Positions 9,871 to 56,313 of a stretch of 64,000 nt of DNA are shown here, one piece after another (the first letter of the stretch is position 1; every line of letters starts with the position of its first letter). A program made the position numbers and the translations under genes. The DNA is taken from the NCBI RefSeq assembly GCF_005503625.1, contig NZ_SCMX01000006.1:62001-126000 (forward strand), given 5' to 3'. Origin of the DNA: Cupriavidus sp. 2SB (GTDB taxonomy: Bacteria > Pseudomonadota > Gammaproteobacteria > Burkholderiales > Burkholderiaceae). Below the pieces are notes generated by a model, which worked only from the letters and a program-made list of their open reading frames with translations, had not been told where the DNA came from and did no database searches.

Positions 9871-9980
9871 TCGCTCATCCGTCTGGCCGCATCCCGCCGT
9901 TGCCCGTATAGTCTTGGCCTGTCGGCGGAAGGCGTGCCACGCACGCCTTCGCCCCACCTCATTCGCACAGGAGTTGCCCC

Positions 9981-11087
<1,107 letters not shown>

Positions 11088-12090: not shown

Positions 12091-12750
12091 TTACTTCAAC
12101 TGGCCAAGAAACTCCTCGGCCATTTCGAGACATTCCTCGTAACTTCGCCAGTACTCACGCCTACGGATCAGTGAGAACTGATCCCGCATCAGATCGGGAC
12201 GCGCTTTCAGTCGGGTGATGAATGCATCGGCGTACTTGAGCAGGTACGGTGCGGCACATCGCAGTGGTTGTGGATCTGCCTCGATAACGACCGCGAGATC
12301 GAAGAGATCTCGGGCAGTACCGCTGTATCCCCGATGGAACAGCTTCTTGGCCACGATTTCGGCCGCTGTCTCGACACGCACCTCTCGCCCCATGATCTCC
12401 CATATCTCATACGGGTTCTCAGTCAGGTTTGTGGCGGCCACGATATCGATCTCGCCTTCGGGCAACCTCAGGCGGATGTAGTTGGCCTGTTCGATATAGT
12501 CGTCGCTAATGGACTCCGCTATGGCACTGAGGCGGGGATTCACGTAGCCGAGGTACTGAGGATCCCGGACGAAGAGATCGATGTCATAGGACAGCCGATG
12601 CTGGTATCGCAGCATCAACACCGTTCCGCCACCAAAGGTCCAGAATGGTTCAACTCCGCCATGCGTCCTGACCTCATCCATCAGGGTGAACGCATGAGGA
12701 AACAGCGCCTCCCACGCTTCCCCCATCAGCGGTTGCACTCTCATTTCCAC
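12091..12750 (-). CDS. AbiEii/AbiGii-type nucleotidyltransferase toxin
   Basis: A 219-residue protein of the nucleotidyltransferase fold used by AbiEii and MenT-like toxins. The core motif is FGGGTVLMLRYQHR with GGGT at residues 40-43, followed by the metal-binding DID at 56-58, and a downstream ARDLFDL block. Such toxins transfer nucleotides to RNA or other targets and halt growth during phage attack until countered by the antitoxin. The start overlaps the end of the upstream XRE gene by ten bases, as expected for a toxin-antitoxin operon. The pair sits between two identical repeats, which hints at transfer as a unit. Activity is inferred. Confidence 0.8.
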   Translation of the reverse strand: MEMRVQPLMGEAWEALFPHAFTLMDEVRTHGGVEPFWTFGGGTVLMLRYQHRLSYDIDLFVRDPQYLGYVNPRLSAIAESISDDYIEQANYIRLRLPEGEIDIVAATNLTENPYEIWEIMGREVRVETAAEIVAKKLFHRGYSGTARDLFDLAVVIEADPQPLRCAAPYLLKYADAFITRLKARPDLMRDQFSLIRRREYWRSYEECLEMAEEFLGQLK

Positions 12751-13244
12751 AACCCATCACGTGTAGCGGAAGTCGATGCGGCGAGACGATGCAGATTCCG
12801 CCAGATCTCTGCCGGCTTGCGGTTGTGCCTCGCTGCAACTTCTGCCACAGCTTTCACAATCAGTTGCAGCGGCGCTTCATCGAGAACCTGCGCGACATGG
12901 GCACGATAGCCCTGCGGGGTTTCCCCCGTGGCGAGCGCGGCGTCGAGCAGCTCAGGCGTGAAATCCCCGGAGTAACTCACGTTCGCGCCTAGCGCTGCCA
13001 TTCGGAGCGCATTGGGAGGTTTGCCGGCCGCTGCGCGCGCGACATCGGGATCATCGATAGAGATGGAAAGTCCCAATACGTCGAGTAACCGAACGAGATT
13101 CTCCAGCGTAACGTTCACCGTTCCGCGTTCAATGCCATTCAAGGTTTGCCGGGATAGCCCAGCCAGATCAGCGAGGCGCTGCTGGGAAATGCCGAGCGAC
13201 TGCCGTTTGCGTTGGATAGCAAGCATAAGTGCCGATAGGTGCAT
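12741..13244 (-). CDS. XRE-family regulator, likely antitoxin of the AbiEii-type pair
   Basis: A 167-residue protein. The N-terminal Cro/CI helix-turn-helix runs through SQQRLADLAGLSRQTLNGIE at about residues 20-40. The C-terminal half is a separate helical domain that may bind the toxin. It is the first gene of the pair, in the usual antitoxin-first order, and overlaps the toxin gene. A perfect 11-bp inverted repeat lies just upstream and probably is its own operator. Classical AbiEi antitoxins carry a different winged-helix domain, so this pair is a variant. Starts at 13244 or 13226 are both possible. Confidence 0.75.
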   Translation of the reverse strand: MHLSALMLAIQRKRQSLGISQQRLADLAGLSRQTLNGIERGTVNVTLENLVRLLDVLGLSISIDDPDVARAAAGKPPNALRMAALGANVSYSGDFTPELLDAALATGETPQGYRAHVAQVLDEAPLQLIVKAVAEVAARHNRKPAEIWRNLHRLAASTSATRDGLWK

Positions 13245-13264
13245 AGCTCAGGGGCGACTTGCAG

Positions 13265-13292
13265 TTTTTTGTCAAGTATAGTTGACAAAAAA
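13265..13292. promoter_or_regulatory. Probable operator of the XRE-toxin operon
   Basis: TTTTTTGTCAA and TTGACAAAAAA are perfect 11-bp inverted arms around GTATAG. The site lies about 20 bases before the XRE start. Its position and symmetry suit autorepression by the XRE dimer. Confidence 0.65.
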
Positions 13293-13337
13293 TTCTATGC
13301 AAGTCTGCCTCAGGTTAGCGCCACGGCAGTCGCGTTA

Positions 13338-13462
13338 CTCCCCTCTCCCGCGAAGTGGGAGAGGGGTTGGGGGAGAGGGCCAGAGGGCCTGCTTGCCAGC
13401 CCATCGCAAGTTGAACCGCTTGCCCTCTCCCCTGCCCCTCTCCCGGAGGGAGAGGGGAAAAA
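13338..13462. repeat. REP-like 125-bp repeat, copy B
   Basis: A direct repeat of copy A at 11957, one base shorter in the linker. It lies between the XRE promoter and the end of the flavin reductase gene, and can serve as a terminator for the latter: on the minus strand its arms form a strong hairpin. Confidence 0.9.
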
Positions 13463-31145: not shown

Positions 31146-32150
31146 GTGCCGAAATCAAGACTGGAGGATGTAGCGAAACTTGCGGGAGTCTCCACCGCGA
31201 CCGTGTCGCGGGCGCTCACCTCCCCTTCGCTGGTGCGGGAAGATACGCTGGCCCGCGTGCGCGACGCGATCGATGCGCTGGGCTATGTTCCCGATGCGTC
31301 GGCCAGGACGCTGGCCTCGGGACGCTCACACACCATTGCGGCTGTGGTGCCCACTCTCGATAACGCCATCTTCTCGCACGCCATCCAGGGGATGCAGGAA
31401 GTGCTCGCCGCTGCGGGGTATCAGCTTCTTCTCGGGTCTCACAATTACGACTCGAATACGGAAACCGATGTCGTGAGGGCCCTGTCAGAGCGAGCCGTCG
31501 ATGCCATGGTGTTGGTCGGCGCCGACCACGCCCCGGAAACGCTCTCGATACTCAAGCAATCACAAACCCGCACCATCGTCACCTGGGCGCTGTCCAACGC
31601 GCTTCCCTGCATCGGATTCGACAACTTCGAGATCGGCGCACTGGCTGCCAGATACCTGTTCGACCTGGGGCACCGTCATTTCGGCATGATTTCCGGGATT
31701 GCACGGCACAACGACCGCGCTCGATTGCGCACAGAGGGCTTTGTCACCGCGCTGCGCGCCTTGCGCGCCGAGTTACCGCCACAAGCTGCATGCGAGCAGC
31801 CCTACTCTTTCGCCGGTGGACGCGCCGGACTGCAAGACATCCTGCGTAATTCCCCGACCAGGCCAACCGCTGTATTTTGCGGCAACGACGTGCTGGCGCT
31901 TGGATGCCTCTTCGAAGCCGCTGCCCTCGGTATCAGCGTCCCGTCCCAACTGTCGATCGTCGGCTGCGACGACTTGCCGATCTCCGCCGAGATCGCGCCA
32001 GGTCTTACCACGGTGGGCCTGCAAAGCAGCCTGCTGGGGAAAAAAACCGCAATTGCGTTGCTGCGCTGGCTGCAGGATGGCGTCGAGCCGGGACGGACCG
32101 AGATGCCGATCTCGCTGATCGAGCGCGGCACTACGGCGCCACCGCGTTAA
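31146..32150 (+). CDS. LacI-family regulator of the sulfonate cluster
   Basis: A 334-residue LacI/GalR protein. GTG 31146 is chosen because GGAG lies seven bases before it and the protein then starts VPKSRLEDVAKLAGVSTATV, the canonical headpiece. A longer frame from 30996 would run through an operator. The effector domain shows FDNFEIGALAARYLFDLGHRH and FCGNDVLALGCLFEAAALG. The gene diverges from hpsN with two AAGCGCTT operators between, so it likely represses the operon and itself until a pathway compound binds. Confidence 0.88.
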   Translation: MPKSRLEDVAKLAGVSTATVSRALTSPSLVREDTLARVRDAIDALGYVPDASARTLASGRSHTIAAVVPTLDNAIFSHAIQGMQEVLAAAGYQLLLGSHNYDSNTETDVVRALSERAVDAMVLVGADHAPETLSILKQSQTRTIVTWALSNALPCIGFDNFEIGALAARYLFDLGHRHFGMISGIARHNDRARLRTEGFVTALRALRAELPPQAACEQPYSFAGGRAGLQDILRNSPTRPTAVFCGNDVLALGCLFEAAALGISVPSQLSIVGCDDLPISAEIAPGLTTVGLQSSLLGKKTAIALLRWLQDGVEPGRTEMPISLIERGTTAPPR

Positions 32151-32221
32151 GTTGTGACCGGCAAACTCAATGCTTCCGATCACCCACCGGACGGCTGGCA
32201 ATTGCGGCCGGGGAATACGGT

Positions 32222-32382
32222 TTGTCAAAGAAGCGCGATTCCTTGGTCTTCGCCACAAATTCCCAGAATAATCAAGGCTATAGCTGACCTTCCGGCTTCT
32301 TTGTCAAATGGATCCGAAACGAAGATGGCAAGATTTCCGTCGAATGACGGATTGAGAGGCTTACGAGATTACGGTTTGTCAA
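32222..32382 (+). repeat. Three TTGTCAA repeats, probable transposase-binding end of the Tn7-like element
   Basis: TTGTCAAA occurs in the same direction at 32222, 32301 and 32376, spaced by 79 and 75 bases; the first and third share the longer ACGGTTTGTCAAA. Spaced direct repeats of this kind next to the tnsB gene are what a TnsB-binding end looks like. The outer end may be the TGTCAAAG at 32223. No inverted counterpart was found on the far side. The 360 bases from 32151 to 32510 hold no gene. Confidence 0.5.
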
Positions 32383-32510
32383 ACGCAGTGTGCAGCGCGC
32401 GCCGCCTCGCAGCGAAGCCAACATGATGCTTATCCTAGCAAGTAGTCAGGCCGCTCCGTAAATGCATCCAGTAAAGTCGCGTCTCAGCTTCTGTGCCCGC
32501 GCGCCCAAAA

Positions 32511-34952
32511 TCAACGGGGGCTCTTGCGGAAGCGTGCAAGGTACTCTTGCAGATCGAACTTCTGGCCGCCAATGCCACGAGAATTCGTCGATTTTTTCGA
32601 TGCCGAGAGTTCCTCGTCGAACTCGAGATCCGTATCCTGCGCGGAATCATCGACTTCTGCCCCCTCCGCGCCATCGACCACGGTCATCACGGATGACTGC
32701 TGGTCCGCCCTATCCGACTTCCTACGGCGTCGTTTCAGTCCGTTGGCCTCCTCTAGTCCCGCGTTTTCGCCGTAGGACCTTAAGGTCGCCTGCGTCGGCG
32801 GCAGGTCGAGGTAATCAACCCGGAGCTCTCCATCCGCACCGTTATACACTCTCTTCCATTTTGCTTGCAGCCGGAATGGACTTGGAACAAGCGCCAGCTC
32901 TACGACGAAGTCTTTGCCAGGATAGCTTTCCGCCCACGACTTAGCATCTTCAAGAAGAAGCCGAGCGTTTTTTCGTTCATCCTTTGTGCCCTCGGCACCC
33001 GCTCCGAAACGCATTCTGTCATCCCAAACTTCCCCCTCGATCAACGTGCGTGGTTCGAACTTCAGTATCTGCGCAGCAAGCCTATCCAAATCAACTGGCT
33101 CAGCCGCGTCGCCCACGAGTTCGCTTTGCCGCGCCCTGTGGATTTCGGCGCGCGTCGGCGCAACCTCCTCCAGGTTCATGTCTCGCGTCAATGCCAGCTC
33201 GTCTGTCCTGCGCTTAAGATTCAAGTCGTTAACCGCATTGGCGACGATCCTAACAAGCGATCGCATCTCCAACTCTACTTCGCCATGCTTGTGCTTGACT
33301 GCTACCGCATTTCGAGTGCTACGTTCCTTCTCTTTAGCCTTTTCCTCGGCGGTCGCCCGCCGCTCTCTGCCCACTAGCTGCTTCATCGTAACAAAGCCGC
33401 GGGGAAGCGCGGCATATGTTTCCAAGAGTGCATCCTCAAGTTGAGCTGACGAAGCAATCTTCTTTTTTACACCTGCGCGTTCGTTTACGGCGGCCTTCAA
33501 AGGCTTGTGCACACCTTCCACCGTCCCCTTGTCGACAGCAACATAGGGACGCGTAACCGCAATATCCATGAAGGCTGCTCCCGTGACGTAGACCTGCATG
33601 AACTCAGTGCAACCCGGCCCCCTGTCAACCAAAACCTCACCATAGAGGCCTGACACTATCCCGTGCATCTTTTTGGGGTCGAGACCAACAGCTTCCAACA
33701 GCGTCTTCTTGTCAGCCAGCGCCCAATAGAGACACTTCCTATAGGCTTGCGTCGTTTCTCGCCCGATCATTACGTAGAACCCGACAATCGCGCCTGTAGA
33801 GCGACTGCACGCGACAATAACCGTTGCATATCCCAGTCGCTTTCGAACTCCGTTTTTGCTGCGGCCCACGACGATGATCTTACGGAATTCCGTGGCATCC
33901 ATCTCGATAGTCTCGATAATGTCCGCATTGCGATCGCGCGCCCGCCCGCCGGGTATCTTCATCTTCGCTGTGCCATGCGCAGCAGCATTTATAGCGTGAA
34001 GCTTCGCCCTAATTTCGCCCTCACGCGCCTTCAGTATTCGCTTACGGTGGTAAGCGACCATAAACTCTGTCGGCCTGTTGTTGATCTCACTGAAACTAGC
34101 GGGCCCCACATAGAACCGATTTCGGAACGTGGTCCAAAACTTGCCTCGGCTTCTGAGCAAAGCGACAGTTGCGTCAACGTCGATTGCCCCGTTTTCATAA
34201 AGCTTGGGCGCATCAACTATGCTGTTGATCAGCGTCTCCACGCAGGTACGCCACCTTGCAGTCATCCCTTTTCGCGTTCGAGGCGTCCAGGACTCCAACT
34301 CCTTGGCATCCATCGGACCGACTCGCACACCGGTCTCACTCGAAACTCGGGGGGTGCCAGGAGGGTCGCTCGCCCCACCCCTAGGAATCAGGGCAGCATC
34401 ATCGCCTCCCATTCGAATCCAGCGAAAGAAGAGTCGCTTGAGTTCGGCTTTGTCCACACCCGTCCGTTCGGCCTCATCATGTAGGACATCATCCCGAAAT
34501 CGGGAGTCCAAGAACATCGCGTCGAGACCTCTCTCACGAAGGCGCGGATTGCGTTGATCGCGGGTGCCGATAATTCCGCGTAGCGCGTAGCGTGCCGAAT
34601 CCCATCCGCTCCCAATTTCCCCAATGAGGGGGGGAGGACAAAGGCCCAGCGCAGGTTTATGCTTCAATCGTTCTGCCCGGAGACACTCTGCCACCCAGGT
34701 ACGCTGGGCCACCATGCGAGGATGGGACCAAGTGTCTGGAACAAACTCCACAGACTCGCGCATCGCTGGTGAGATTTTCGGATCGTCAGGAAGAATCAAA
34801 CTTTGGCGACGGCGATTCTGTGGCTGCGCCAAGTCATACAACACAAATTGCCCAACATACTGATCCAACGGGATTAAGCGGTAGAAGGACTCACAACCGC
34901 TCTCATCGACCATGCGGACAGGCCTAAACGGCGGGTTGACATCCTCGGTCAT
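32511..34952 (-). CDS. tnsB: Tn7-like transposase TnsB (DDE family)
   Basis: An 813-residue Mu/Tn7-type DDE transposase that cuts and joins the 3' ends of the element. The central rve-like core holds Asp352 in IEMDATEF, Asp443 in LVDRGPG and Glu479 in KGTVEGVHK; the last two are exactly 35 residues apart, so the active site looks whole. N-terminal DNA-binding and C-terminal charged regions match TnsB layout. It is the last gene of the module and closest to the repeat-bearing end. A broken piece of a second tnsB lies just upstream. Base composition is closer to the core than that of tniQ. Confidence 0.88.
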   Translation of the reverse strand: MTEDVNPPFRPVRMVDESGCESFYRLIPLDQYVGQFVLYDLAQPQNRRRQSLILPDDPKISPAMRESVEFVPDTWSHPRMVAQRTWVAECLRAERLKHKPALGLCPPPLIGEIGSGWDSARYALRGIIGTRDQRNPRLRERGLDAMFLDSRFRDDVLHDEAERTGVDKAELKRLFFRWIRMGGDDAALIPRGGASDPPGTPRVSSETGVRVGPMDAKELESWTPRTRKGMTARWRTCVETLINSIVDAPKLYENGAIDVDATVALLRSRGKFWTTFRNRFYVGPASFSEINNRPTEFMVAYHRKRILKAREGEIRAKLHAINAAAHGTAKMKIPGGRARDRNADIIETIEMDATEFRKIIVVGRSKNGVRKRLGYATVIVACSRSTGAIVGFYVMIGRETTQAYRKCLYWALADKKTLLEAVGLDPKKMHGIVSGLYGEVLVDRGPGCTEFMQVYVTGAAFMDIAVTRPYVAVDKGTVEGVHKPLKAAVNERAGVKKKIASSAQLEDALLETYAALPRGFVTMKQLVGRERRATAEEKAKEKERSTRNAVAVKHKHGEVELEMRSLVRIVANAVNDLNLKRRTDELALTRDMNLEEVAPTRAEIHRARQSELVGDAAEPVDLDRLAAQILKFEPRTLIEGEVWDDRMRFGAGAEGTKDERKNARLLLEDAKSWAESYPGKDFVVELALVPSPFRLQAKWKRVYNGADGELRVDYLDLPPTQATLRSYGENAGLEEANGLKRRRRKSDRADQQSSVMTVVDGAEGAEVDDSAQDTDLEFDEELSASKKSTNSRGIGGQKFDLQEYLARFRKSPR

Positions 34953-34967: not shown

Positions 34968-35338
34968 TCAGATGCGATCTGCACGATATCTTGCGCGGAC
35001 AATTCCCAGTCCGCCGCGCGCCCGCGGTTTCTCCGAGGCCTGCGCTGAAGAACTTATTGCGTTAAGCTTAGTCCTGATTTCCATTTCGCGCCCCTTAAGT
35101 ATTTGTCTGCGGTGATAGTCGATCATAGTTTCCGTCGGCCTGTCGTCGATCTCCGAGGGGCTGACAGGGCCGACATAGAACCGAGTCCGAAAAAGCTCCC
35201 AGAATGCTCGTCGAGTTCTGAGCAACGCCAAGGTCGCATCGACGTCGACTGCCCCGTTTTCGGTACGAGTCGACTTATCACGATATCTTCAAACAGCATT
35301 TCGATACAGGAACGCCATCTCGCATTCATAACCGGCAT
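34968..35338 (-). pseudogene. Remnant of a second, diverged tnsB
   Basis: Two overlapping minus-strand frames together match about residues 230-345 of the intact TnsB. One frame gives NARWRSCIEMLFEDIV (compare TARWRTCVETLINSIV); after a frameshift the other gives ALLRTRRAFWELF and FYVGPVSPSEIDDRPTETM (compare FYVGPASFSEINNRPTEFM). It stops just before the catalytic core. The mismatch level shows a diverged copy, not a recent duplication. Confidence 0.8.
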
Positions 35339-35408: not shown

Positions 35409-37004
35409 TTATTCATCGACTCCAAATATCTTAAAATTTTCTAACCCTTGAAAACTTACACGACGAGCAAAAAATTCCACATCTGTTTCCACCATGTTTC
35501 TTGCTATCGCGGCAATACGCTTACTGTCCTTCTCAGCCTTTGACATCGCATTATTCGTCACCCCGATCTCCCTCAGTATCAATGCGCGCGAACACCGAAC
35601 TGGTGGAAGTCTGCTTTTAATTTCAAACACGACTTTATTAATCCTTTTAGCAAGGATCTCCCTTTCCTTAGAAAGCATAGAAATACGCTTCCTCTCTTTC
35701 CTTGAATCCATACTTCTTTTTAACTCAAACATCCAATTTTTATCATTTTCCCATAGCCAGCTACGTGCAGAAGATCCGCCATTTCTATTTATCTCTGTTA
35801 TGCTACTAGCACCTGCGTTGACTAGCGCCATAACCAAAGCTCTATGCTTATCCCGTCGGCACTCAAACTGCCGACGGCAGTATGTCGCTTCTAGTCCGTG
35901 TTGATATTTAATGTACCTACATACATCCCTGAGCTCCCACCCCCCAATCTCGGCAATCTTAACCTTCGAATAACCCTCATCGATGAGGATCCGGACATCA
36001 GATATAACATACTGGTGATCCATTTCGAAGATTGCCGGTTTAATCGAGCGCTCCACAGCACCACAAATAATATCCATCTGCTGCGTTACATTGACGACTT
36101 CTTCTCCGCTCAATTTTTGCTTATCGCCCCCTTGCGCTCCAATTTTCTCAAGGAAGTAGTCAAACAAAATTAAGAAAATCGGATTAATAGTCTTTTTGTA
36201 ACTCGATTTTATCCACGCAACAATATGATTCATTCTGTACGACGATAGAGACAACTCACGGAGAGCTGGGGTAGGCAGTGACCCTCTGCAGAAATTGCGA
36301 TAATCCAATTCTAGTCGACCGACATTAAATTGCAGTTCGGTGTCCACGTAATCTGCTGCCCGTAAAGCACGCTGCAGCCGAATGCGTATTGCATCAGGAT
36401 CCCGTGCTTCCGTTGCCATCCGTGCTCCCACCTGAGCAAACGCCCTCGCGCTTTCGCTTGCCAGCCTCTCCCTGGGGGGCGGCGGTGCGCCACCGGGTAC
36501 TCGGCGGGTCAACACATTGCCACAATCAAAACACGCCGTCATGAATGGAATCTGATCTTGACAGACCAATACTCTCACGCCGAAAAGCTTCCATCGCTTC
36601 CATTCGCATGGTTTGCAAGTTAGCGCCGGATGTTTGGATTCGCAAACCCAAAGTGGTAGGGAGAACCGCGAGAGAGCGGCTTCTTGTCCCGCTACCGCAC
36701 GCGTGATTAAGTTTTCGCGTCGATCCGGGGGAAGCCCTAGACTAGCCAGCGCACAAAGCGTGTGCTTCTCGAGAAGTTCCTCCACCGTGTACATGCCCTG
36801 GGACATACATTCCAGCTGCGACAGTGGAATGGTCACGGTCGAAAAAGCTAGGTAGGATTGGTCCGCCCACGTCAACAAGCTAGAGGTGTTGTCGCCACCG
36901 CTCCATGATGTCCCGAGAAGCAAATCCGCAATACTTCCAGCCGTCGCGTTGGGCGGCAACTCGACGATGGGTACTGCAACTATCCTCTCAGATGCCGGTT
37001 TCAT
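35409..37004 (-). CDS. TniQ/TnsD-family target selector, copy 1
   Basis: A 531-residue protein of the TniQ/TnsD family, which links a target site to the TnsC-transposase complex. The N-terminal domain begins VPIVELPPNATAGSIADLL. A zinc-ribbon-like region has TCKPCEW, VLVCQDQIPF and ACFDCGNVL. The C-terminal third is AT-rich, lysine-rich and less conserved, where site-recognition helices would sit. GAAGG precedes the ATG at 37004. It is clearly paralogous to the TniQ at 37884, above all in the N-terminal 100 residues. Low GC at 35,400-36,200 marks this as foreign. Confidence 0.8.
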   Translation of the reverse strand: MKPASERIVAVPIVELPPNATAGSIADLLLGTSWSGGDNTSSLLTWADQSYLAFSTVTIPLSQLECMSQGMYTVEELLEKHTLCALASLGLPPDRRENLITRAVAGQEAALSRFSLPLWVCESKHPALTCKPCEWKRWKLFGVRVLVCQDQIPFMTACFDCGNVLTRRVPGGAPPPPRERLASESARAFAQVGARMATEARDPDAIRIRLQRALRAADYVDTELQFNVGRLELDYRNFCRGSLPTPALRELSLSSYRMNHIVAWIKSSYKKTINPIFLILFDYFLEKIGAQGGDKQKLSGEEVVNVTQQMDIICGAVERSIKPAIFEMDHQYVISDVRILIDEGYSKVKIAEIGGWELRDVCRYIKYQHGLEATYCRRQFECRRDKHRALVMALVNAGASSITEINRNGGSSARSWLWENDKNWMFELKRSMDSRKERKRISMLSKEREILAKRINKVVFEIKSRLPPVRCSRALILREIGVTNNAMSKAEKDSKRIAAIARNMVETDVEFFARRVSFQGLENFKIFGVDE

Positions 37005-37013
37005 AGGGCACCT

Positions 37014-37835
37014 TCACCCGCGCGTTTCCTGCAATTTTCCCATCTCCCGCGTGACCAACTTTATCGGCAAGTGCGGCTGAATCCGTTCGCGAAGGTCGAC
37101 GTGCAGGTATCCCAAAACTATGGCTGCCACGACCCAGCGATACAGATCGTTCAAGCTAACTGGGTCCCCTGGCATGAGCCCGAATTTTTCCCGTAGCGCA
37201 TTGTCCTCACGAATAGCCAAGTGCAGGCGCTCAAGGCGGGTCTTCAGCGGCGTCTCCGATTTGCGCATGAGCCTTTGGGCTATCGTCTGCGCGGGGACTC
37301 GCATAAGCTCAACGTTACTGTGACGCACTGTTTCGTAAAGCCAAATCGCGTTCTTTTGTTCGGTGACGGAGAAGACCTCCAGATCGGCCTTCTCCATCGT
37401 GAAGCCGAGTTCAGCGAGCTTCGACGCCTTTTGTGCTGCGATGGTCCGAGTGAACAGCGCATGAAAATGACACTCACCCCTGGCGTTCTTGGCTTCCAGC
37501 GTCAGCACGCGGGGTATCGTTACATCTGGTCTCAGCGCCACTCTCGCGGCTTCCGTGAAGTAGATCGGCACGTAGCAACGTAGGTCGATGACATACGCGC
37601 ACGTCTTCAGAGGAAAATCGAGTTGCCGCAGCGTCTCAGCTTGGTAGCAAAGTCGACTACCCCCGCGAATGCTACGACTGGACCCATAGGTTGAATTGAT
37701 GGACGGCTTGGGAGCGAAGGTGTTGTGCATATACCCTACACCCGTCGCATTGCCGAACCGATCTATGGGCGGCATGTCTAGGGTTGGTCCACGGACACAA
37801 GTAGCAGCCAACGTTTTTAGCGAGATTGGTGGCAT
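37014..37835 (-). CDS. TnsA-like endonuclease of the Tn7-like module
   Basis: A protein of 273 residues when started at ATG 37835, which follows a strong GAGGAGG. The middle has the pattern of a TnsA-type restriction-like nuclease: Glu67 in YQAETLRQLDF, Asp104 in LRPDVTI and Glu114-x-Lys116 in LTLEAKN. TnsA cuts the 5' ends, so that transposition is cut-and-paste. The C-terminal part is helical, as in TnsA. It sits between two tniQ genes, not beside tnsB, which is odd. The assignment rests on motif and context, with weak overall likeness. Confidence 0.62.
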   Translation of the reverse strand: MPPISLKTLAATCVRGPTLDMPPIDRFGNATGVGYMHNTFAPKPSINSTYGSSRSIRGGSRLCYQAETLRQLDFPLKTCAYVIDLRCYVPIYFTEAARVALRPDVTIPRVLTLEAKNARGECHFHALFTRTIAAQKASKLAELGFTMEKADLEVFSVTEQKNAIWLYETVRHSNVELMRVPAQTIAQRLMRKSETPLKTRLERLHLAIREDNALREKFGLMPGDPVSLNDLYRWVVAAIVLGYLHVDLRERIQPHLPIKLVTREMGKLQETRG

Positions 37836-37883
37836 CGCATCCTCCTCTGTGGATCGAGCGCCTGCCTGGCGCAACAGGTGACT

Positions 37884-39452
37884 TTAAATTGTCTTTCTCA
37901 CGCGAAACGCATCGTGAGACTCGACCACGCAACGCACAACGAGCTCAATGGCAGGTTGCGCTCTGGCTTTGCTCCATGCCTGCACGGTCAATCCCGTCTC
38001 ACGACGGATGGCCTCGAGCGAGGCACGTGTTGGCGGCATCCGCCGCCGAATCCTTCGTGCAGCAGTCCCAATGCGACGTGCCAAGAGCGTGTACTGCCCC
38101 GACTCGGGCATGCTGTCGCAACGCGGCCGATGTGCTGCTCGATGCCGTTTTGCCGCCAGCGCGGTCGCGAACGACTGGATCCATGGCCCATCATTTGCAT
38201 AAAGCCATTGAATCGCACTGTTTCCCCCCAGCTTGCGCAGCATCGACAAGCTGGCGTCAGGCCATCGTTCGCTCAGCTCCAACAATACCGCTCGCGCTTC
38301 AGTGAGATGGACATTGCGTTGCACCGCGCGATATTGGTCAGAAAGACCGCTCACTCGCACATAATCATGGACTGCGTCGTAGGTTGTCTGAAGGAGCCGG
38401 CTCATCTGTGTACGCGTACAGCCAACAGCAAGAAGGCGGGGAATATCGTCGAACGCATAGTGCCTTCTTGGATCAACCGGCAGAATTCGTGCCGATTCCA
38501 CTCGCGCATGCCAGACGCTCGCCTGCGATTCTGGGATACTCGGCTTCGCCTTCGTATTGCCCACCGGTACAGGAGGACTTACCCCATATGCGCCACCAAT
38601 GTTGAGAAAGCAGTCCAGCAGCATGACGAAGACCGGGTGGATTGTCCTTGCTTCTGACCGCAGCCAACCTAGTATGTGGGCCATACGAAGCGGATACTGT
38701 GATACCTCGCGTAGGCCGGGATGCGAGACGAAGCTCTGACAGAAGGTGTTGAAATCCTTCTGCAAGGGGCTGATTCGGTAATACGTTGTAGATGCATAGC
38801 CAGCCGCATTCAGAGCATCACTTAGCCTTGCACGCACCGCTTTTGGCGAAGCAGATTCCTTTGCCAACCTCTGCGCAATCTGTGCGAAAACGACGGCGTT
38901 GCCCTGAGCGGCTTGCCCATGTGGCCTCGGTGGCGCGGGCCCCGCAATCCGGCGACTAAGTAGGTTTCCACAGTCAGCACAGGCCGTATTGAAAGGGATC
39001 TGATTGCGACAATCCAGCGCCCTCACCCCATACTGCTGCCATCTCGCCCACTCACACGGCCCGCATGTCATTGTCGGCTTCTTGTCATCGTGTAACCAGT
39101 TTTGCAGCCGAGGTGGTGCGTAAGTAGTTGCGCTACCGTTCACTGCCCGCGATACGAGATTGGCGCGGTTGGCCTCCGACAATCCGAGTCCAGCCAGCGC
39201 ACACAACGTGTTGTTCTCGAGTAGACGAGCAACCGAATACATACCCTCAGAACGCAATTCGATCTGCGATAGTGGCAGCGTGACTGTAGCGAATGCCAGT
39301 GGCGAGCGATCAGCAAGAGAAAGCTCGTCCGAGGTATAGTCTCCGCCGCTCCAAGCACGCCCAACCAGCATGTCAGCGATACTGGCGGCAGTTGCGTGAG
39401 GAGGCAATTCCACGATCGGTACAGACAAGCGACTACTAACGTTGGCACTCAC
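37884..39452 (-). CDS. TniQ/TnsD-family target selector, copy 2
   Basis: A 522-residue paralogue of the TniQ at 35409. The N-terminus SVPIVELPPHATAASIADML and the block MYSVARLLENNTLCALAGLG agree closely. The zinc-ribbon-like cysteines are in TCGPCEW, ALDCRNQIPF and ACADCGNLL. I use GTG 39452 as start, since AGGAG lies eight bases before it and the conserved part follows at once; a longer form to 39491 is open. Only four bases separate it from the TnsC-like gene. Differences in the C-terminal half suggest a different target site. Confidence 0.8.
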   Translation of the reverse strand: MSANVSSRLSVPIVELPPHATAASIADMLVGRAWSGGDYTSDELSLADRSPLAFATVTLPLSQIELRSEGMYSVARLLENNTLCALAGLGLSEANRANLVSRAVNGSATTYAPPRLQNWLHDDKKPTMTCGPCEWARWQQYGVRALDCRNQIPFNTACADCGNLLSRRIAGPAPPRPHGQAAQGNAVVFAQIAQRLAKESASPKAVRARLSDALNAAGYASTTYYRISPLQKDFNTFCQSFVSHPGLREVSQYPLRMAHILGWLRSEARTIHPVFVMLLDCFLNIGGAYGVSPPVPVGNTKAKPSIPESQASVWHARVESARILPVDPRRHYAFDDIPRLLAVGCTRTQMSRLLQTTYDAVHDYVRVSGLSDQYRAVQRNVHLTEARAVLLELSERWPDASLSMLRKLGGNSAIQWLYANDGPWIQSFATALAAKRHRAAHRPRCDSMPESGQYTLLARRIGTAARRIRRRMPPTRASLEAIRRETGLTVQAWSKARAQPAIELVVRCVVESHDAFRVRKTI

Positions 39453-39456
39453 GACG

Positions 39457-40698
39457 TCATCTCCTGCGAGCCAATGCGAGCGGTAGTGCATCGCGAAACT
39501 GGGCGAGCAGCGGCCTTGTTACTTGGCCTTTCTGGCACATCATCTCGAATGCTACGAGAGCACCGCTATACTCCTGCCTGATCGTGCTAGCTACATCGCC
39601 GATGACCTTCTTGGGCTGCAATCCTTCTACATGGATACCCCGCGCTATCAGTCCCGCTGCAGCGTCAACAAGATCTCGACGCCCGTACAGGGAACCGATC
39701 ATTTCCGTTAGCGGATCCAGTAACGACTCGTCGAGTTCGAGCGTGTTGACTAGACACTTGGCCACATTGGCCGCGTCGTCCTGGTCGATGGGGCCAATTT
39801 CGATGACATTCGCGGGAAAAGCGCGCCGAAATTCGGCACTGCCTTCGCAGTCAGCAATGGCTCCCGATGCGACAAGCACCGGAACGATCCCCGCTAAGCG
39901 CAATGCATACGCGATCTTCCAAAGGTCCTCGCCCTTGCAATGGATATCGCCCCAATCATAGATCACCACCATAGCGACGCTCGACATCTGTAGGTGCCGT
40001 ATCACGTCCAGCGTTCCAAGGCGACCTCTTCCGCATTCGATTCCAAGTCTGGCTCGTACATCCAGTCCTCCGACCTGGTCCAACGCTTTCACAATCGCAT
40101 CGAGAATCTCAGATTCTGCATTGCTTCGTGGCATCGCCACCGGCAACAGCGGAACCTGACGATAGATCAGCTTACGTACGTCCACAACATTCCCGGCATC
40201 GTCAACATCGGTCCACGAACCATGGGGAATGGGAGTTCCCAGGAATTTGCAGAGCGCCTTCACGCCCTTTTCGAACTGTACATACGTCGGCGCGCATATC
40301 GCGAGACTTGCGCAGATCGGCGAGGTCGGAACTATCACCTCACGACTAGCAGCGATGGCAGCCACTTTATGACACCAGTCGATGTACCGGCGCGTCATTG
40401 AACCCGTGACGACGCGAACAAGCGTCAACATTTCGAATAGGACTTCAGCATCGAGCCTGGTGCAGGGGTAGTGAGTGTGGATTCGTTCAAGCAATCTTTC
40501 GTATGGGGACTGCCTGCTGTCCACCTCCTGCCGTGGCGTGGGCAAAGACTTGCCATACAGTTCATCTGCAAATTCAAGAACTGAAGTCGTTGGCTTCGGC
40601 AGTTCCCGCAGCAATTGGCCAGGTGCGGCACTAAGCATCATTTCGAGCTGCTGCAGATCCATCAACCGCCCATTTGGTCCTTTGACTTTCATCGGCAT
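39457..40698 (-). CDS. TnsC-like regulator with degenerate Walker motifs
   Basis: A 413-residue protein whose order of segments follows TnsC: YERLLERIH, a strand and loop at the Walker A position, LPVAMPRSNAESEIL, then a Walker B strand and a sensor strand VPVLVASGAI. The Walker A position (about 133-147) reads AICAPTYVQFEKGVK, without the GK[ST] of ATP-binding loops, and the Walker B position reads VVIYDWGDI in place of a DE pair. ATP use therefore seems unlikely. TnsC normally uses ATP to assemble on DNA and license the transposase. Start 40698 follows GGGGA. Family call is by motif order and context. Confidence 0.6.
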   Translation of the reverse strand: MPMKVKGPNGRLMDLQQLEMMLSAAPGQLLRELPKPTTSVLEFADELYGKSLPTPRQEVDSRQSPYERLLERIHTHYPCTRLDAEVLFEMLTLVRVVTGSMTRRYIDWCHKVAAIAASREVIVPTSPICASLAICAPTYVQFEKGVKALCKFLGTPIPHGSWTDVDDAGNVVDVRKLIYRQVPLLPVAMPRSNAESEILDAIVKALDQVGGLDVRARLGIECGRGRLGTLDVIRHLQMSSVAMVVIYDWGDIHCKGEDLWKIAYALRLAGIVPVLVASGAIADCEGSAEFRRAFPANVIEIGPIDQDDAANVAKCLVNTLELDESLLDPLTEMIGSLYGRRDLVDAAAGLIARGIHVEGLQPKKVIGDVASTIRQEYSGALVAFEMMCQKGQVTRPLLAQFRDALPLALARRR

Positions 40699-41010
40699 CG
40701 CATTCCCCAAATGGGTGCAAAATCTGCTACGTCTCGAAGGATTCTTTGCCCGGCAAATCGTACTGAGCATCGATACTCGATGCCGTCAGCGGAGGAAGCA
40801 CGAAGGATTCGCCTGTCGCGGGAAGCGAGACCCAAACCCGTACACACGAAGGAAAGAATGAACGATGATCCCGCACGCCTTCGCTGCAGCAGTACGCTGT
40901 TCTCAGGATTGCCTCCAGAGCCGAATGCCGGAATCAAAGCCTTCTGGGCAGGCTACGAGCAGCGCAGCGTCCAGCCAGCCGTGCCAGCTAGCGACGAATG
41001 CCGGAATTTT
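40699..41010. other. Intergenic gap inside the transposition module
   Basis: About 310 bases between the TnsC-like gene and the next minus-strand gene. A short plus-strand frame from about 40780 to 41040 exists but has no recognisable sequence. Nothing else is seen. Confidence 0.4.
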
Positions 41011-41829
41011 CTAGGTGTGCCTGACACCGCGATACCCTGACGCTGCGCAGCCCCGTGCTACTACGTCCGACCGATGAACTTTGCATTGTCTGGGAGAAAA
41101 TTGCATCGCGTCTGTAGGTGAACTCTTCGCGCATTGGGATCGCCAGGCGAGCACGGCTTGCGAACGCCATTCGAAGCGCCTTAAAGTTTCCTCTGCTTGA
41201 CGGTCCCGAATCCTGTCCAAATGCCAATCGACGTACCTTCGAAGGAACCGATTATCAAGGATATGGTGTAGCCCGCCGATTCCAATTTCGACGAGCTCTA
41301 AGAATTCCCAGCCTTGGACCTGCGACACGCAACTCCGCCGCCGGGCAGAGTGGTCGAAAATGGTATCGTGACGATGCACATCCCAGCTCATATGCAGGGC
41401 ATTTGGCGCAGGAGATACCTTGCCGATCAACGGCTTCCCGAGAGACCACGGCTCACCCGTCAGACCCATTAGCGACACAAAGGACCAAGATTGACGCCTT
41501 CCTCGGGGTTTCATGATGGCCTGCCGGAGCATTGTTGCAAGCTGGCTCGACTTTCCAGCATCGCTGATGTGGCGCCCGGCACCGCAAGTCGCAAGATTCG
41601 AGGGCAGCCCGTCTGAGTCGTAATGCCCGGATGGGCTCGTCCCAAAGCAGCGGTTCCAAAGCGCGAATTTTGCGAGCCACAGCCGTCGAACATGGCCAGC
41701 AAACTGGGAAGCATCTGGAGCGGATTCCCATCCTACGCCGGGGAAACGATCCTGCACCGCAGCAGTCAATTTTGAATGTGCTACTGGCGCGCCTACCAAC
41801 CGAATGTGAGAAACCGTTGACGCATGCAT
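41011..41829 (-). CDS. Protein of unknown function at the head of the Tn7-like module
   Basis: I do not recognise this 272-residue protein. The ATG at 41829 has a very good ribosome site, GGAGGAG seven bases before it, which favours a real gene. The sequence is basic, with a clear helical part, FLRRYVDWHLDRIRDRQAEE, and a tail rich in Cys and Arg. It lies in the same direction as and upstream of the TnsC-like gene, separated by 310 bases. It could be an accessory transposition or cargo gene. The last 30 residues look irregular and may be out of a true frame. Confidence 0.45.
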   Translation of the reverse strand: MHASTVSHIRLVGAPVAHSKLTAAVQDRFPGVGWESAPDASQFAGHVRRLWLAKFALWNRCFGTSPSGHYDSDGLPSNLATCGAGRHISDAGKSSQLATMLRQAIMKPRGRRQSWSFVSLMGLTGEPWSLGKPLIGKVSPAPNALHMSWDVHRHDTIFDHSARRRSCVSQVQGWEFLELVEIGIGGLHHILDNRFLRRYVDWHLDRIRDRQAEETLRRFEWRSQAVLAWRSQCAKSSPTDAMQFSPRQCKVHRSDVVARGCAASGYRGVRHT

Positions 41830-42071
41830 GGCTCAACTCCTCCGAGGCTCGCCCCTTCCAGATGCGGTGGCAATTTGCCTGATTCGGACTGAACCATAGA
41901 GCACGTAAATTTTTTTTCAAGGGCCAACATCAACGGAGTACGACGTCACACATCAATAGCGCCCACCGACATCATCGCATTATGATTTTTCATTTAATAT
42001 AATTAACGCTATACGGTTTATATAACCTAGTAAGTTAACACGCAATATTCACTACGTTCTTCTTGTTAACT

Positions 42072-43952
42072 TTAGAAGATACCAGTCCGCTCCAACTCCT
42101 GTGCTCGGCGCTCGGCCTCTGCGCGTACGTACACCGATGTGGTGGCGAGCGATGCGTGACCCAGCTGGCTCTGCACGACATCCAACGCGACGCCATGTGC
42201 GACCGCATGGTTGCCAAAGGAATGGCGCAGCCAGTGCGCCGTAGCGCTAGCTAGACGCCGCGCCCCTTCGGGGTCATCGCTCTCCAACGCACGCGCTGCA
42301 TCCTCAAAGAAGCCCTTATAAATCGCGTGGACCTGTTCGACTGACAGGTTCCCCACTTTTCCATCGGCCTTCACGCGACCAATCAAAGGCGTTGCTGGAT
42401 GCAGACGCCCAACGTCTTCTGCCAGACCGCGATTCTTCAGATATCGTGTCAGCTGCCACATGACCGTATGGGAGACATGAACCTCTCGTTCAATCGTTCC
42501 CTTTCCAATGAACACTAACGACCAGGTTCCACGGGGATTGTCGGGAAGGTCGTGATGCACAAGCTGGCCCACAGTGGCCCTAGCTTGCTCAGAGATACGC
42601 AGCCCTGTCGCGTACGCAAATCGCAGCATGAACTGAAGTCGCATGCTGCGCGGATCTTCTTCCGGCAGCTCTGCGGCATATCGTTGCAGGAACGCCCATT
42701 GCGACTTCGTAAAGCTTCGCGAGATCTGAATTCTCGTACCCGCCGCCTTTGGTTTCGGCAGCAAAGAGAATGGGTTGTAACGCAGATATTGCGCGTCGAC
42801 TAGCCAGTGGCAAAGATTGCTCACCACCGTGTAGCTCTGGCGGATGCTGGTTGGTGACAGCGGACCAGCGAACGGTCTCCAGTCATACCGAAAGCGTGGC
42901 ACGCCGCGCGGGCCGACCCATCGCTCTGTCGGCTGTGGATCGGCAAGGAAGTCGAGGAATGCGGAGCAATCCTCTACGGTCAGGTCGGATAGCGCCTTTC
43001 CTCGTTCGAAGACAGCCCATAGCAGCAACCTCTCTGCATGACAGCGGTAGGTCTTCCATGTAGCGCTTCCCTCCGGACCATGCACACCCAGCCAAGCTCG
43101 TATAGCACTCAAATCATTTTGAGCGTTTGTTCTCGCAGGCGTACCTGGCGGCGGCCGGTTTTGACCATCACGGCCGTCATATGCTGTCGGCAATTGAAGT
43201 GACTCCAAGGGGGCGACCATGGCGGCAGCCGGCCGGAGGCTGGCGAGCATTTCACGAGATGCTGTACGGCGCGATGCCAGTGCCGCAGGCGGCATGTCGC
43301 CCAACGAAGACCCCGCATCAATGAGCCAGGCCGTCAACCGGCGCCCCGTGGTCGGTCCAATGCCATGTGCGAGGGTGTACCACCGCGGCCCGCGTAACAC
43401 CACTTGCTGCTTCAGGTCCTGTAGGGTTGGTAGCCCAGCTCGGGTAAGCCGGGCGGCGACCGCCGGCGAAAACCAGGCCGCAACGGAATCCTCGGGAGCT
43501 GGCGCCCTGGTCAGGTACGGCCGCACTAGGTCAAGCGCCGCCAGTTGTCGAGCACGCCGCTTTCGTTGGCCGTCTGAGTGCTCCCCAACGACGGCAAACA
43601 ACTCCTTCCACGTGCCTTCGTCGAGCACATCGCCAAGCCCATCGGCTGATTCCGCAGCTGATTCCGTACTGGCAAGCTCGGATTGCAGGCATCGCACACC
43701 ACGGAGCAGTTCCGCTTCTATCACCCGCAGTTCTGCGGTAGCCGCTCGCCGGTCTGCCCCGGTCTCCAGGTAGCGCGCGCCAAGGTCCGCCAAGTCCAAG
43801 CCTTCGACGACGCCTTTATAGAACGCAAAGTGCTGGGCGCCCAGATATCGCACAGGAGAAATCGGCGCCCCCGGGCCCCGACGACGCTTAGCCGGTGCTT
43901 GGAGAGTCTCCCCGTCGGCCGTCCCTTTTTCCTCTGGCTTTTTGTTCGCCAT
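42072..43952 (-). CDS. Large tyrosine recombinase/integrase
   Basis: A 626-residue phage-integrase-family protein. The C-terminal catalytic domain has Arg in ATGLRISEQA, the HxxR box in TAHWLRHSFG, and LGHASLATTSVYVR with the last His and the Tyr nucleophile. A SAM-like N-binding domain lies near residues 280-370. The N-terminal 250 residues are an added domain, typical of long integrases of genomic islands. It is the natural mover of the island that runs to the right. A striking inverted repeat stands 60 bases before its start. Confidence 0.9.
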   Translation of the reverse strand: MANKKPEEKGTADGETLQAPAKRRRGPGAPISPVRYLGAQHFAFYKGVVEGLDLADLGARYLETGADRRAATAELRVIEAELLRGVRCLQSELASTESAAESADGLGDVLDEGTWKELFAVVGEHSDGQRKRRARQLAALDLVRPYLTRAPAPEDSVAAWFSPAVAARLTRAGLPTLQDLKQQVVLRGPRWYTLAHGIGPTTGRRLTAWLIDAGSSLGDMPPAALASRRTASREMLASLRPAAAMVAPLESLQLPTAYDGRDGQNRPPPGTPARTNAQNDLSAIRAWLGVHGPEGSATWKTYRCHAERLLLWAVFERGKALSDLTVEDCSAFLDFLADPQPTERWVGPRGVPRFRYDWRPFAGPLSPTSIRQSYTVVSNLCHWLVDAQYLRYNPFSLLPKPKAAGTRIQISRSFTKSQWAFLQRYAAELPEEDPRSMRLQFMLRFAYATGLRISEQARATVGQLVHHDLPDNPRGTWSLVFIGKGTIEREVHVSHTVMWQLTRYLKNRGLAEDVGRLHPATPLIGRVKADGKVGNLSVEQVHAIYKGFFEDAARALESDDPEGARRLASATAHWLRHSFGNHAVAHGVALDVVQSQLGHASLATTSVYVRAEAERRAQELERTGIF

Positions 43953-44720
43953 GGCGCGCCCTCCTTCGCATCAACGACATCGGGAGGCCCGCTGGGATTC
44001 GTACCACAATCGCCTATCCAGATATCCGTTGATATCTTGATAGGTGAATTTGCTCCGCAATACGAGCGGCATTTTTGAGCAGGAGTTGACGAAGGCGTCT
44101 GCGCGACATGCGGACGGCGGCAGCCCGTTGCAGGGCCCTCTTCCTTAGAGCGGCAACATCCTGCCGCTTAAGCAGAAAAGCCATCGTAAGCGCCGCATTT
44201 TTGAGCCTTACGGCAAACGATCAGCTTCGGAACACCAAGTCGCACGGAGGTATCGGCGGCCAACGACACTCCGAAGGTGAGAGATTTTTCCAGGCTCTCT
44301 CACCTTTGAAGTCCTTGACAACGGAGTTCGCCTTGTCGTTGCTCGATTCAAATGAGGGAGAACGAAATGCCATCCAGGAACTCTGCGACAGCGCAGATCA
44401 CGGACGGTTAGCAAAGCCCCATTTTTCCAAGAAGGAGACAAGCGCGCCGCTAGCTGCCCGCACTGCAGAACGGTTGTTGGAACGACCTTGCACCGCCGAG
44501 ATGCCCCGTTCAGCGACAGGAAAGGTTTGGCGAAGAGCATCCTCGCCGCAGTTTGCGACGTTTGCGGGACGGTGTCGCGACACCCGCGCAATCCACGTCG
44601 GCCATCCTTGCGGCTCGCCGCTGAGAAGCCTGCACGACGCCCGGCTCTCGCTCCTCTGCCGACAAGAAAAACGAGCACCACAGAGGGCGCCCGTTAGGAG
44701 AGGTGTTTGCGACTATCCCA
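43953..44720. other. Non-coding region upstream of the integrase
   Basis: No convincing gene in about 770 bases. Open frames on both strands lack ribosome sites and read as low-grade sequence. GCATTTTTGAGC occurs twice, near 44069 and 44192. The island's attachment or recombination site could lie here. Confidence 0.45.
44013..44044. repeat. Compound inverted repeat before the integrase gene
   Basis: CCTATC-CA-GATATC-CGTT-GATATC-TT-GATAGG: two nested perfect pairs around a 4-base centre. It could be a recombinase core site or an operator for the integrase promoter. Confidence 0.7.
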
Positions 44721-54825: not shown

Positions 54826-55389
54826 GAGAATTGTCGGTAGCAGGTCTACGAAACACTGAATCGCATCTCGCGTCCAGCGAATGGCCACTTCTACTAGCAA
54901 GGCGCATACCTCTGCGTCCTTGGCACCAGTATTCGTGGAATTAACGCACCTGGAAAATCGATAATTCTCATCGCGAAAACCTTTTGTTATCGCGACTCCG
55001 CGGCACCCGAACAGAGGTCCTTTGGGCACCAATTCCGTGCCCGGGTCACCAATCACAAGCAGCCAACCGGGACGTCATTCCCACGGAGGGGGCACAGACG
55101 CGCCTCCCATCGCCGCAAATGAATCGGTTCGCCATTTTCGCCGGGATGCACCCCATCAAGCTCGCTGGACTACGCTAGAGGCGCTGGAATGGATCGAGCG
55201 CCTGACCCTCAATTGAGAAAAATGAAGCCCCTCACGTGGCAATGACGGACTCAAAACCTCGGAGGTGAAGAAAGGCACGATCCTGAAGACGTGCGCCGCC
55301 TCCAATGTAAGGCTTCAGCAGTGAGCCGAGATGTAGGTCTTCCGTTGATTCAGCATCGCACCGTCTTGGCTGCCAATTGCGCACCAGCG
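54826..55389. other. Gap between the MFS gene and the methyltransferase
   Basis: About 560 bases. It must hold the promoter of the MFS-LysR-porin-hydrolase module. TCGCGA occurs twice around an AT-rich segment near 54971-54997. No gene is recognised. Confidence 0.4.
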
Positions 55390-55434
55390 ATGTCTCCATA
55401 CGCGTCATCACCCCCGCGCGCACCTATACTGAGG

Positions 55435-56313
55435 ATGCAAAAACATCCTCAACCTCACGCCGCAGAAGCCGGCACCCCTCCCTCCACCAATATCCCAGCT
55501 CAGGCTGGGCCGATTTTGAAGTGGCCCGGTGGCAAGACCCAGTTGCTGCCCATGCTCCGAGAACTGCTGCCCGCCGGAAATCGCCTCGTAGAGCCGTTTC
55601 TTGGCGGTGCCAGCGTGTTTCTCGGAACAGATTTTCCGAGCTATCTGCTGCTCGATGCGCACGCAGACCTCATCGGCATGTACAAGCAGATTGTCCAGCA
55701 ACCCGAGCGCGTCATCGAGCTAGCACGACCGCTGTTCTCCCCACATGCTGCGAACGAAGAGATCTACTCCTTCGTCCGGGATGCATTCAATCGAGCTAGC
55801 CCAGCCGACGTTCGCGCCGCCTACTTCCTGTATCTCAACAAGTTCGGATTCAATGGACTTTCTCGATACTCGGCCAAGGGCAACTTCAATGTGCCATGGA
55901 ATCGCTCCGCCAAGACTCCGGCGTTGCCGGAAGATAATATTCGAGCGTTCAGTCAACGGGCGCGAGAAATGGCGGTCATCGTGCAAGGCGACTTCACCGA
56001 TGCGTTCAAACTCGCGGTGCCCGGAGACGTCATCTACTGTGACCCACCGTATGTGGATCGTGAGGACGCGCCATCTTTTACGAAATACACTGCCGAAGGG
56101 TTCCCGCGAGAACGTCAGTGGGAATTGGCAGATTTGGCGCGCGCCACGGCGACACGAGGCATTCCTGTGGTCATCTCAAATCACCTGACCGGCGAGACGC
56201 GGGAGCTCTATCGCGATGCTGAGTGTCACGAAGTCGAAGTACGCCGGTCTGTGGCAGCCAGGGCGGGCGCTCGCAGGAAGGTTTCCGAAGGAATCTTCGT
56301 CTTCAAGGCTTAG
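55435..56313 (+). CDS. Solitary D12-class N6-adenine DNA methyltransferase
   Basis: A 292-residue methyltransferase of the Dam/D12 class. Motif I region LKWPGGKTQLLPML near the start binds AdoMet; EPFLGGASVFLG follows; the catalytic DPPY is in IYCDPPYVDRED. The layout agrees with Dam or phage-type enzymes that methylate adenine, often in GATC. No restriction gene is next to it. A start at ATG 55390 is also open. A perfect 7-bp inverted repeat, GAGGATG and CATCCTC, encloses the chosen start codon and could fold over it in the mRNA. Confidence 0.85.
   Translation: MQKHPQPHAAEAGTPPSTNIPAQAGPILKWPGGKTQLLPMLRELLPAGNRLVEPFLGGASVFLGTDFPSYLLLDAHADLIGMYKQIVQQPERVIELARPLFSPHAANEEIYSFVRDAFNRASPADVRAAYFLYLNKFGFNGLSRYSAKGNFNVPWNRSAKTPALPEDNIRAFSQRAREMAVIVQGDFTDAFKLAVPGDVIYCDPPYVDREDAPSFTKYTAEGFPRERQWELADLARATATRGIPVVISNHLTGETRELYRDAECHEVEVRRSVAARAGARRKVSEGIFVFKA

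Follow-up and report, generated by a model that had tools for sequence, protein, structure and literature searches.

A conserved family of TnsC-like proteins lacking canonical ATP-binding motifs in Tn7-like elements of Burkholderiaceae

Analysis of a 64,000-nucleotide stretch of Cupriavidus sp. 2SB DNA (the window, by which we mean this whole stretch) found a Tn7-like gene cassette on the minus strand. In order of transcription, the cassette comprises a tyrosine recombinase gene with a DUF3701 domain (42072..43952; Pfam Phage_integrase 1.2e-18, DUF3701 2.1e-18), a 1.3-kb gap, a tnsC-like gene (39457..40770), a gene for a first candidate TniQ/TnsD-like target selector (37884..39491; Pfam TnsD 2.7e-8), which is a conserved neighbour and overlaps the tnsC-like stop, a gene for a TnsA-like protein without the catalytic lysine (37014..37874; 27-30% identity to the TnsA-like proteins of four relatives), a gene for a second TnsD-like protein (35409..37004; Pfam TnsD 6.3e-12; 38% identical to the first), a tnsB fragment (34968..35231; 58% identity to the full TnsB over its residues 263-336) and a gene for a TnsB-like DDE transposase (32511..34952), all on the minus strand. 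With Pfam TnsD matched by two ORFs, TniQ/TnsD is present next to the tnsC-like gene. The earlier note on this DNA had described an intact TnsB beside a degenerate TnsC, and D352, D443 and E479 are indeed conserved in the transposase; it was silent on the degeneracy of TnsA and on the tyrosine recombinase gene accompanying the cassette. The TnsB fragment appears from its sequence to be the remnant of a duplication, and because the fragment and the second TnsD-like gene are 58% and 38% identical to their counterparts, they suggest that the region was duplicated in tandem or is a mosaic derived from two related elements. The gap between the recombinase and tnsC-like genes (40771-42071) holds no convincing gene and includes an AT-rich stretch near 41970-42070. 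Elsewhere in the window, an ORF at 55291-56313 resembles a DNA adenine methylase by eye.

Two kinds of putative DNA site flank these genes. Just beyond tnsB lie three exact copies of TTTGTCAAA (32221..32383, plus strand; starts 32221, 32300 and 32375), found nowhere else in the window, where 0.18 copies are expected and 0 of 100 shuffles reach three; they are probably a TnsB-binding array of the tnsB-side transposon end. Upstream of the recombinase gene by 61 bp, a 32-bp near-palindrome recognized by eye (44013..44044) is a proposed recombination site. Comparison with two relatives (L017/L018) places the tnsB-side boundary: the lacI-like gene beyond tnsB aligns to both until a few bases from its stop, the alignments ending at 32144-32145, and since they extend no further the element probably begins near the lacI stop. 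The far end and the target duplication were not found in end searches, and the empty-site comparison with the same two relatives gave the tnsB-side boundary only.

The tnsC-like ORF encodes 437 amino acids from its first ATG, and an alternative start at 40698 is also possible, giving 413 amino acids. The sequence at its Walker A position is ICAPTYVQFEKG; the P-loop position itself reads ICAPTYVQFEKGVKAL, where TnsC has GxSGxGKS/T, and the Walker B position (VVIYDWGDI, within MVVIYDWGDIH) stands against LLIDELQNL in TnsC. Neither Walker A GxxxxGK[ST] nor Walker B hhhhDE is present at the expected position. No family was matched at cut-off or at E 0.05 in Pfam, NCBIfam, PHROGs or PADLOC; as Pfam controls, two TnsCs with GK[ST] match AAA_22 and TniB, and two relatives lacking the P-loop match nothing. 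A GKS triplet does occur in the N-terminal part of the protein (ADELYGKSLPTP) and is not conserved. As a displaced P-loop it was rejected, since it lies off the P-loop position and the aligned residues in the related loci L006 and L007 are LYACSA and LYTHSS. The gene is present as a single copy in its own genome.

Homology to TnsC is supported by profiles and by structure prediction. Searched against the PDB, a profile of ten P-loop-less proteins matched Tn7 TnsC alone at E<=0.1 (2.6e-4). In hhalign comparisons, the five-member group of the window aligned with four TnsCs carrying GK[ST] at a probability of 94.1% (E 1.2e-7) and with the P-loop-less group free of recombinase at 98.1% (E 1.2e-13). 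The AAA+ fold of TnsC is predicted for a homologue, L137, whose AlphaFold2 model (pLDDT 76.2, pTM 0.79) had E. coli Tn7 TnsC entries as all of its best 20 PDB matches (E down to 5.7e-14, TM 0.5-0.7), followed by TnsCs of CAST systems; for the window protein, a model built with six aligned sequences reached pLDDT 40 and is evidence in neither direction. Because that model failed, the fold of the window protein is taken from its homologues. The possibility that the protein is unrelated to TnsC was rejected on the L137 fold match, the hhalign result and the PDB profile match. The ORF is a TnsC relative with neither a P-loop nor an intact Walker B pair, in agreement with the earlier note, whose two motif sequences were confirmed and whose assignment to TnsC is upheld by profile homology.

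The motif loss extends well beyond this genome. Searching 299 genomes from the family with this one protein found, besides the genome of origin, four distant relatives (23-27% identity), all without both motifs and all beside tniQ. Profile searches gave matches in 8 of 60 genomes of the genus and, with the alignment searches at family, class and phylum level scoring 4-5 candidates in each genome, in 25 of 398 genomes of the family, spread over 7 of 25 genera, some of these 25 matches being TniB or TnsC with GK[ST]. The earlier note had proposed looking for relatives with the same lost motifs, and GK[ST] is absent at the P-loop position in 25 of 25 TnsC-like proteins at 24 Burkholderiaceae loci (24 of the 25 were recounted, the remaining one being L150), counts that are distinct from an unbiased census, the relatives having been found with profiles built from P-loop-less proteins, and that come from phylogenetically non-independent loci, of which L033 and L034 share 99.8% identity along 16.6 kb. 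The genera concerned are Cupriavidus, Paraburkholderia, Caballeronia, Burkholderia and others, with members in Cupriavidus sp. EM10, C. campinensis MJ1, Paraburkholderia sp. 22B1P, C. necator SHC 2-3, Caballeronia calidae, Caballeronia sp. and Burkholderia sp. BCC0506. Decay confined to this one copy was rejected, as close relatives also lack GKT, and because relatives have lost the motif at the same position, the loss in the window protein is more than chance.

Beyond Burkholderiaceae, the genomes sampled yielded only TnsCs with GK[ST] (2 matches in 340 class genomes and 8 in 398 phylum genomes); the two degenerate matches of the phylum search, G011 and G020, belong to the same family as the window. 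A class search with a five-row alignment matched the genome of origin only (1 of 369), a single-sequence search of genome contigs found no relative, and neither a plasmid search with the window protein nor two scans of viral contigs yielded a lead. In a tree of 31 sequences, to which L150 and the loci of the class and phylum searches do not belong, the seven TnsC/TniB proteins with GK[ST] fall on one side of one branch with bootstrap 98, which fits a single loss, and some early branches carry weak support (42-63).

Among the P-loop-less proteins the motif is lost to different degrees, with GPLGIGKG in L134, GRSQSGRT in L150, ARTGRG in L125, AYMGRT in L123 and VSMGCRR in L035, and most of the recombinase-carrying Cupriavidus group has hhAPxSMxxx(K/R) at this position. 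Several P-loop-less members keep one acidic Walker B residue; L111 and L117 have EE instead of DE, and in L146 the first P-loop G is replaced by A. Because some members keep parts of the motifs (L134, L150, the Walker B acidic residue), weak nucleotide binding may persist in parts of the P-loop-less group. We weighed a reading in which nucleotide is still used, either with other residues taking the place of the canonical ones or by rings that also contain an intact TnsC or TniB acting in trans. GxxGxGKG or GxxxxGRT loops are kept in some members, as this would predict, and partners can be imagined: the genome of origin encodes an intact TniB-type ATPase of 343 aa with GVSGAGKST on another contig (L141, C100), adjoining TniA- and TniQ-like genes in a Tni-type locus, and L126 (L138, Caballeronia calidae) encodes two different TnsC-like proteins (8637-10049 and 12138-13361) flanking a tniQ gene. 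However, both L126 proteins are P-loop-less, no intact TnsC lies in the stretches examined around P-loop-less loci, and the TniB of the genome of origin resembles the profile of GK[ST] TnsCs only distantly (E 7e-7). A second Tn7-type TnsC in that genome was rejected, this TniB-type protein with its intact P-loop being the sole profile match. We consider continued nucleotide use unlikely, and help in trans from the TniB of the same genome unlikely too.

The degenerate tnsC genes are under purifying selection, with dN/dS of 0.14-0.28 in seven pairs (an eighth being saturated), as the earlier note had suggested checking. For tnsB, dN/dS is 0.12-0.18 in six pairs (a seventh being saturated). The DDE triad is kept in 24 of 24 aligned TnsBs, 20 of them from P-loop-less elements and L009 and L033 being omitted for their broken frames, and a TnsB family profile matches Tn7 TnsB in the PDB at 3.3e-41, the alignment including one canonical TnsB. 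These data bear on the view that these are elements in decay whose TnsC is a remnant akin to a pseudogene, to which the tnsB fragment in the window, the broken frames of L009 and L033 and the one unaccounted end of the window element lend some support. Set against it are the low dN/dS of the pseudo-tnsC genes, full-length open frames in most loci, motif loss of the same kind across several genera, and a 16.6-kb stretch, 99.8% identical between C. campinensis (L034) and Cupriavidus sp. EM10 (L033), that ends near the predicted terminus and beyond which the right flanks differ, although a local rearrangement is possible, as a sequence related to the C. campinensis flank occurs in EM10 about 19 kb away from the element there. 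We judge decay highly improbable, and the dead element that the earlier note had offered as an option is unlikely for the family because dN/dS is low and frames are open in most loci. Flank searches found no clean empty site for L033/L034. The first 33 or so bases of the two right flanks are similar and could encode ASHPVxxEH followed by a stop, perhaps a shared target motif.

Gene order also sets these loci apart. The tnsC gene lies upstream of tnsA-tnsB in 22 of 22 P-loop-less loci with tnsB in view, and tnsB comes before tnsC in 11 of 11 GK[ST] relatives of TnsC type with tnsB in view (L036, L072, L133, L136, L143, L145-L149 and L151), the GK[ST] relatives having come from the same profiles, from TnsB or from the recombinase. 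Only tnsC-tniQ is visible in L127 (contig end), L150 (short flank) and L142 (GK[ST], outside the 11). The usual order in P-loop-less loci is tnsC-tniQ-tniQ-tnsA-tnsB, with variants in the window (second TnsD-like gene between tnsA and tnsB), L035 (one tniQ) and L126 (second tnsC). The P-loop is kept in the Tni-type elements L068 and L078.

Within this family, a Cupriavidus sub-lineage that includes the window carries a tyrosine recombinase gene upstream of tnsC (10 of 10 loci of the window's Cupriavidus group, the gene being broken in L009 and L033); none was found in the stretches examined at the other P-loop-less loci with flanks searched. By alignment, all 11 recombinase-carrying elements compared, the window's included, lack the catalytic lysine of TnsA; among these 11, the TnsC of L072 has GK[ST] and no TnsC was seen in L085, the table omitting L033 with its broken frame. 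The lysine is present in 15 of 15 elements without recombinase, meaning none at E 1e-5 in the stretch examined; L036 has a short upstream ORF annotated as integrase. The TnsA family profile matches TnsA in the PDB at 1.4e-12, the alignment including one canonical TnsA. Members of the recombinase-carrying group, and several P-loop-less elements that retain the lysine, have a conserved HxH motif immediately ahead of the lysine position. With the nuclease lysine of TnsA lost, the product of transposition should be a cointegrate.

The recombinase of the window has the active-site residues R-K-HxxR-H-Y and is 34-36% identical to the full recombinases of L006, L007 and L008. The family is common in the genus, with a match at E 1e-20 in 59 of 60 genomes. 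An inverted-repeat site upstream of the recombinase gene was found once each in L006, L008, L009, L030, L031, L032, L067 and L078 (five of these eight matches exact, one with 1 mismatch and two with 8 of 36) and was unmatched at the threshold used in L007, L033, L034, L068, L072 and L085; the window has its own, different 32-bp version, the near-palindrome described above, which occurs once across the window and the scanned flanking stretches. Four of 20 further recombinase copies precede other transposition genes (L068, L072, L078 and L085). Two of these loci, L068 and L078, are Tni-type elements (TniA, TniB, TniQ) preceded by the recombinase gene, which is broken in L078. The recombinase gene and about 70-190 bp upstream share 78-84% DNA identity among L008, L031 and L078, and the transposition genes of the three are not alike at the DNA level.

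We propose that the recombinase is a cointegrate resolvase; two other readings were considered. The recombinase could instead be a target selector or integrase, comparable to TnsF in Tn6022 or to Tsy. Tn6022 targets via the tyrosine-recombinase-derived TnsF, according to the excerpted text of PMC10293859, and the recombinase is better conserved than the tns genes, the L008/L009 comparison giving 69-72% for the recombinase against 24-30% for the tns genes, a difference in rate of divergence that a separate module or a target gene would also explain. Yet its active-site residues are intact, whereas Tn6022 TnsF is inactivated; a like recombinase and upstream site also accompany a Tni module (L078); each matched locus has one copy of the site and no flanking pair; and the presence of the recombinase is linked to loss of the TnsA lysine. 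We regard a selector or integrase role as unlikely.

Alternatively, the recombinase gene might be the insertion target, with the transposon merely adjoining it. Tn5053-type elements are known res-site hunters, and different transposon types do lie downstream of related recombinase genes, in the four of 20 further loci already named. Several other recombinases adjoin ParA-/RepA-like genes, as judged by eye: DUF3701 recombinases have such neighbours in Cupriavidus, including L069, L074 and L081 (13 of the 20 copies being listed), a neighbourhood that would be as for a multimer resolvase. The element ends speak against this possibility. Tn7-type termini were recognized in 5 of 24 sequences scanned (with one mononucleotide shuffle each), the window not among the five. 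In four of these loci the terminus lies beside tnsB. In L031 it reads TGT-N6-ACAATAAAG-N14-ACAATAAAG and is situated upstream of the recombinase gene; this would place that gene inside the element, although searches did not locate the right end of L031, one candidate having fallen inside a gene. Moreover, no Tn7-type terminus lies between the recombinase and tnsC in the loci scanned, and the similarity between unlike elements reaches only some 70-190 bp beyond the recombinase gene on its upstream side. We regard an insertion target as rather improbable.

The reading that we favour, and consider probable, is that of an ATP-independent TnsC adaptor, combined in the Cupriavidus sub-lineage with replicative transposition whose cointegrates are resolved by the tyrosine recombinase. 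In this scheme, the TnsC-family protein would keep the AAA+ body of Tn7 TnsC without the residues for canonical ATP binding and hydrolysis. TnsB, by known Tn7 biology and its intact residues, would bind the end repeats and join the 3′ ends. Target-bound TniQ/TnsD would recruit the pseudo-TnsC, which as an ATP-independent adaptor would pass the target to TnsB, assembly being licensed by contact with TniQ instead of an ATP cycle. Within the Cupriavidus sub-lineage of the window, TnsA would no longer cut the 5′ strands, so that cointegrates form, and the co-encoded tyrosine recombinase would resolve them at the inverted-repeat site just upstream of its gene. We infer the adaptor role, a lack of ATP binding in vitro, the cointegrates and the resolvase role, and it is reasonable to infer that target licensing works differently from control by ATP state. 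A broader version, in which the whole mobile clade would be ATP-free at the TnsC step through TniQ/TnsD contact and one branch would have become replicative with a captured recombinase, has in our view an even chance of being right. That a pseudo-ATPase TnsC family forms a conserved, new variant in Tn7-like elements of Burkholderiaceae is well supported.

The ATP state of TnsC is generally regarded as the switch by which Tn7, CAST, Mu and IS21 systems link transposition to the choice of target. Natural, conserved TnsCs without an ATP site make the role of ATP directly testable, and the related elements that share the loss suggest a transposition control without the standard ATP switch. The graded intermediates show how that switch may have been lost, and TnsCs free of an ATP site could give simpler parts for targeted DNA insertion. 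Among the titles and abstract openings listed from open-licence literature, none describes a Walker-less TnsC or a Tn7-like element whose resolvase is a tyrosine recombinase. The excerpted text of PMC3384475 reports a Tn7-like island of C. metallidurans that carries two tnsD genes. As stated in the accessible part of Faure et al. 2023 (PMC10293859), the TnsC tree of that Tn7 survey was built after discarding sequences with gaps at the Walker positions, and Walker-less TnsC elements may therefore be under-counted there.

Several known systems offer points of comparison. Tn7 TnsC of E. coli (PDB 7mbw, 7mcs, 8glw) is alike in the predicted fold of the homologue, in its place in the system with TnsA, TnsB and TnsD/TniQ as neighbours, and as the sole PDB relative by profile; the window protein differs from it in having neither GK[ST] nor the DE pair, and the window-type tnsC lies upstream of tnsA-tnsB, in contrast to the Tn7 gene, which follows tnsB. 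TniB of Tn5053/Tn402-type elements, the AAA+ partner of a DDE transposase, is detected by the same profile, but the TniB copies found keep their P-loop, and the window element has a TnsA-like gene and two TnsD-like genes. Genomic islands of the GInt type share a tyrosine recombinase at one island end, but their ginABC genes all encode recombinases, with no tns-type genes described in the excerpted text (PMC5385486). Tn6022 likewise joins Tn7-like machinery to a protein of tyrosine-recombinase descent; its TnsF is, in the part of Faure et al. 2023 available (PMC10293859), an inactivated recombinase without the catalytic chamber, whereas in the window the active site of the recombinase is intact and it is TnsC that lacks the Walker motifs.
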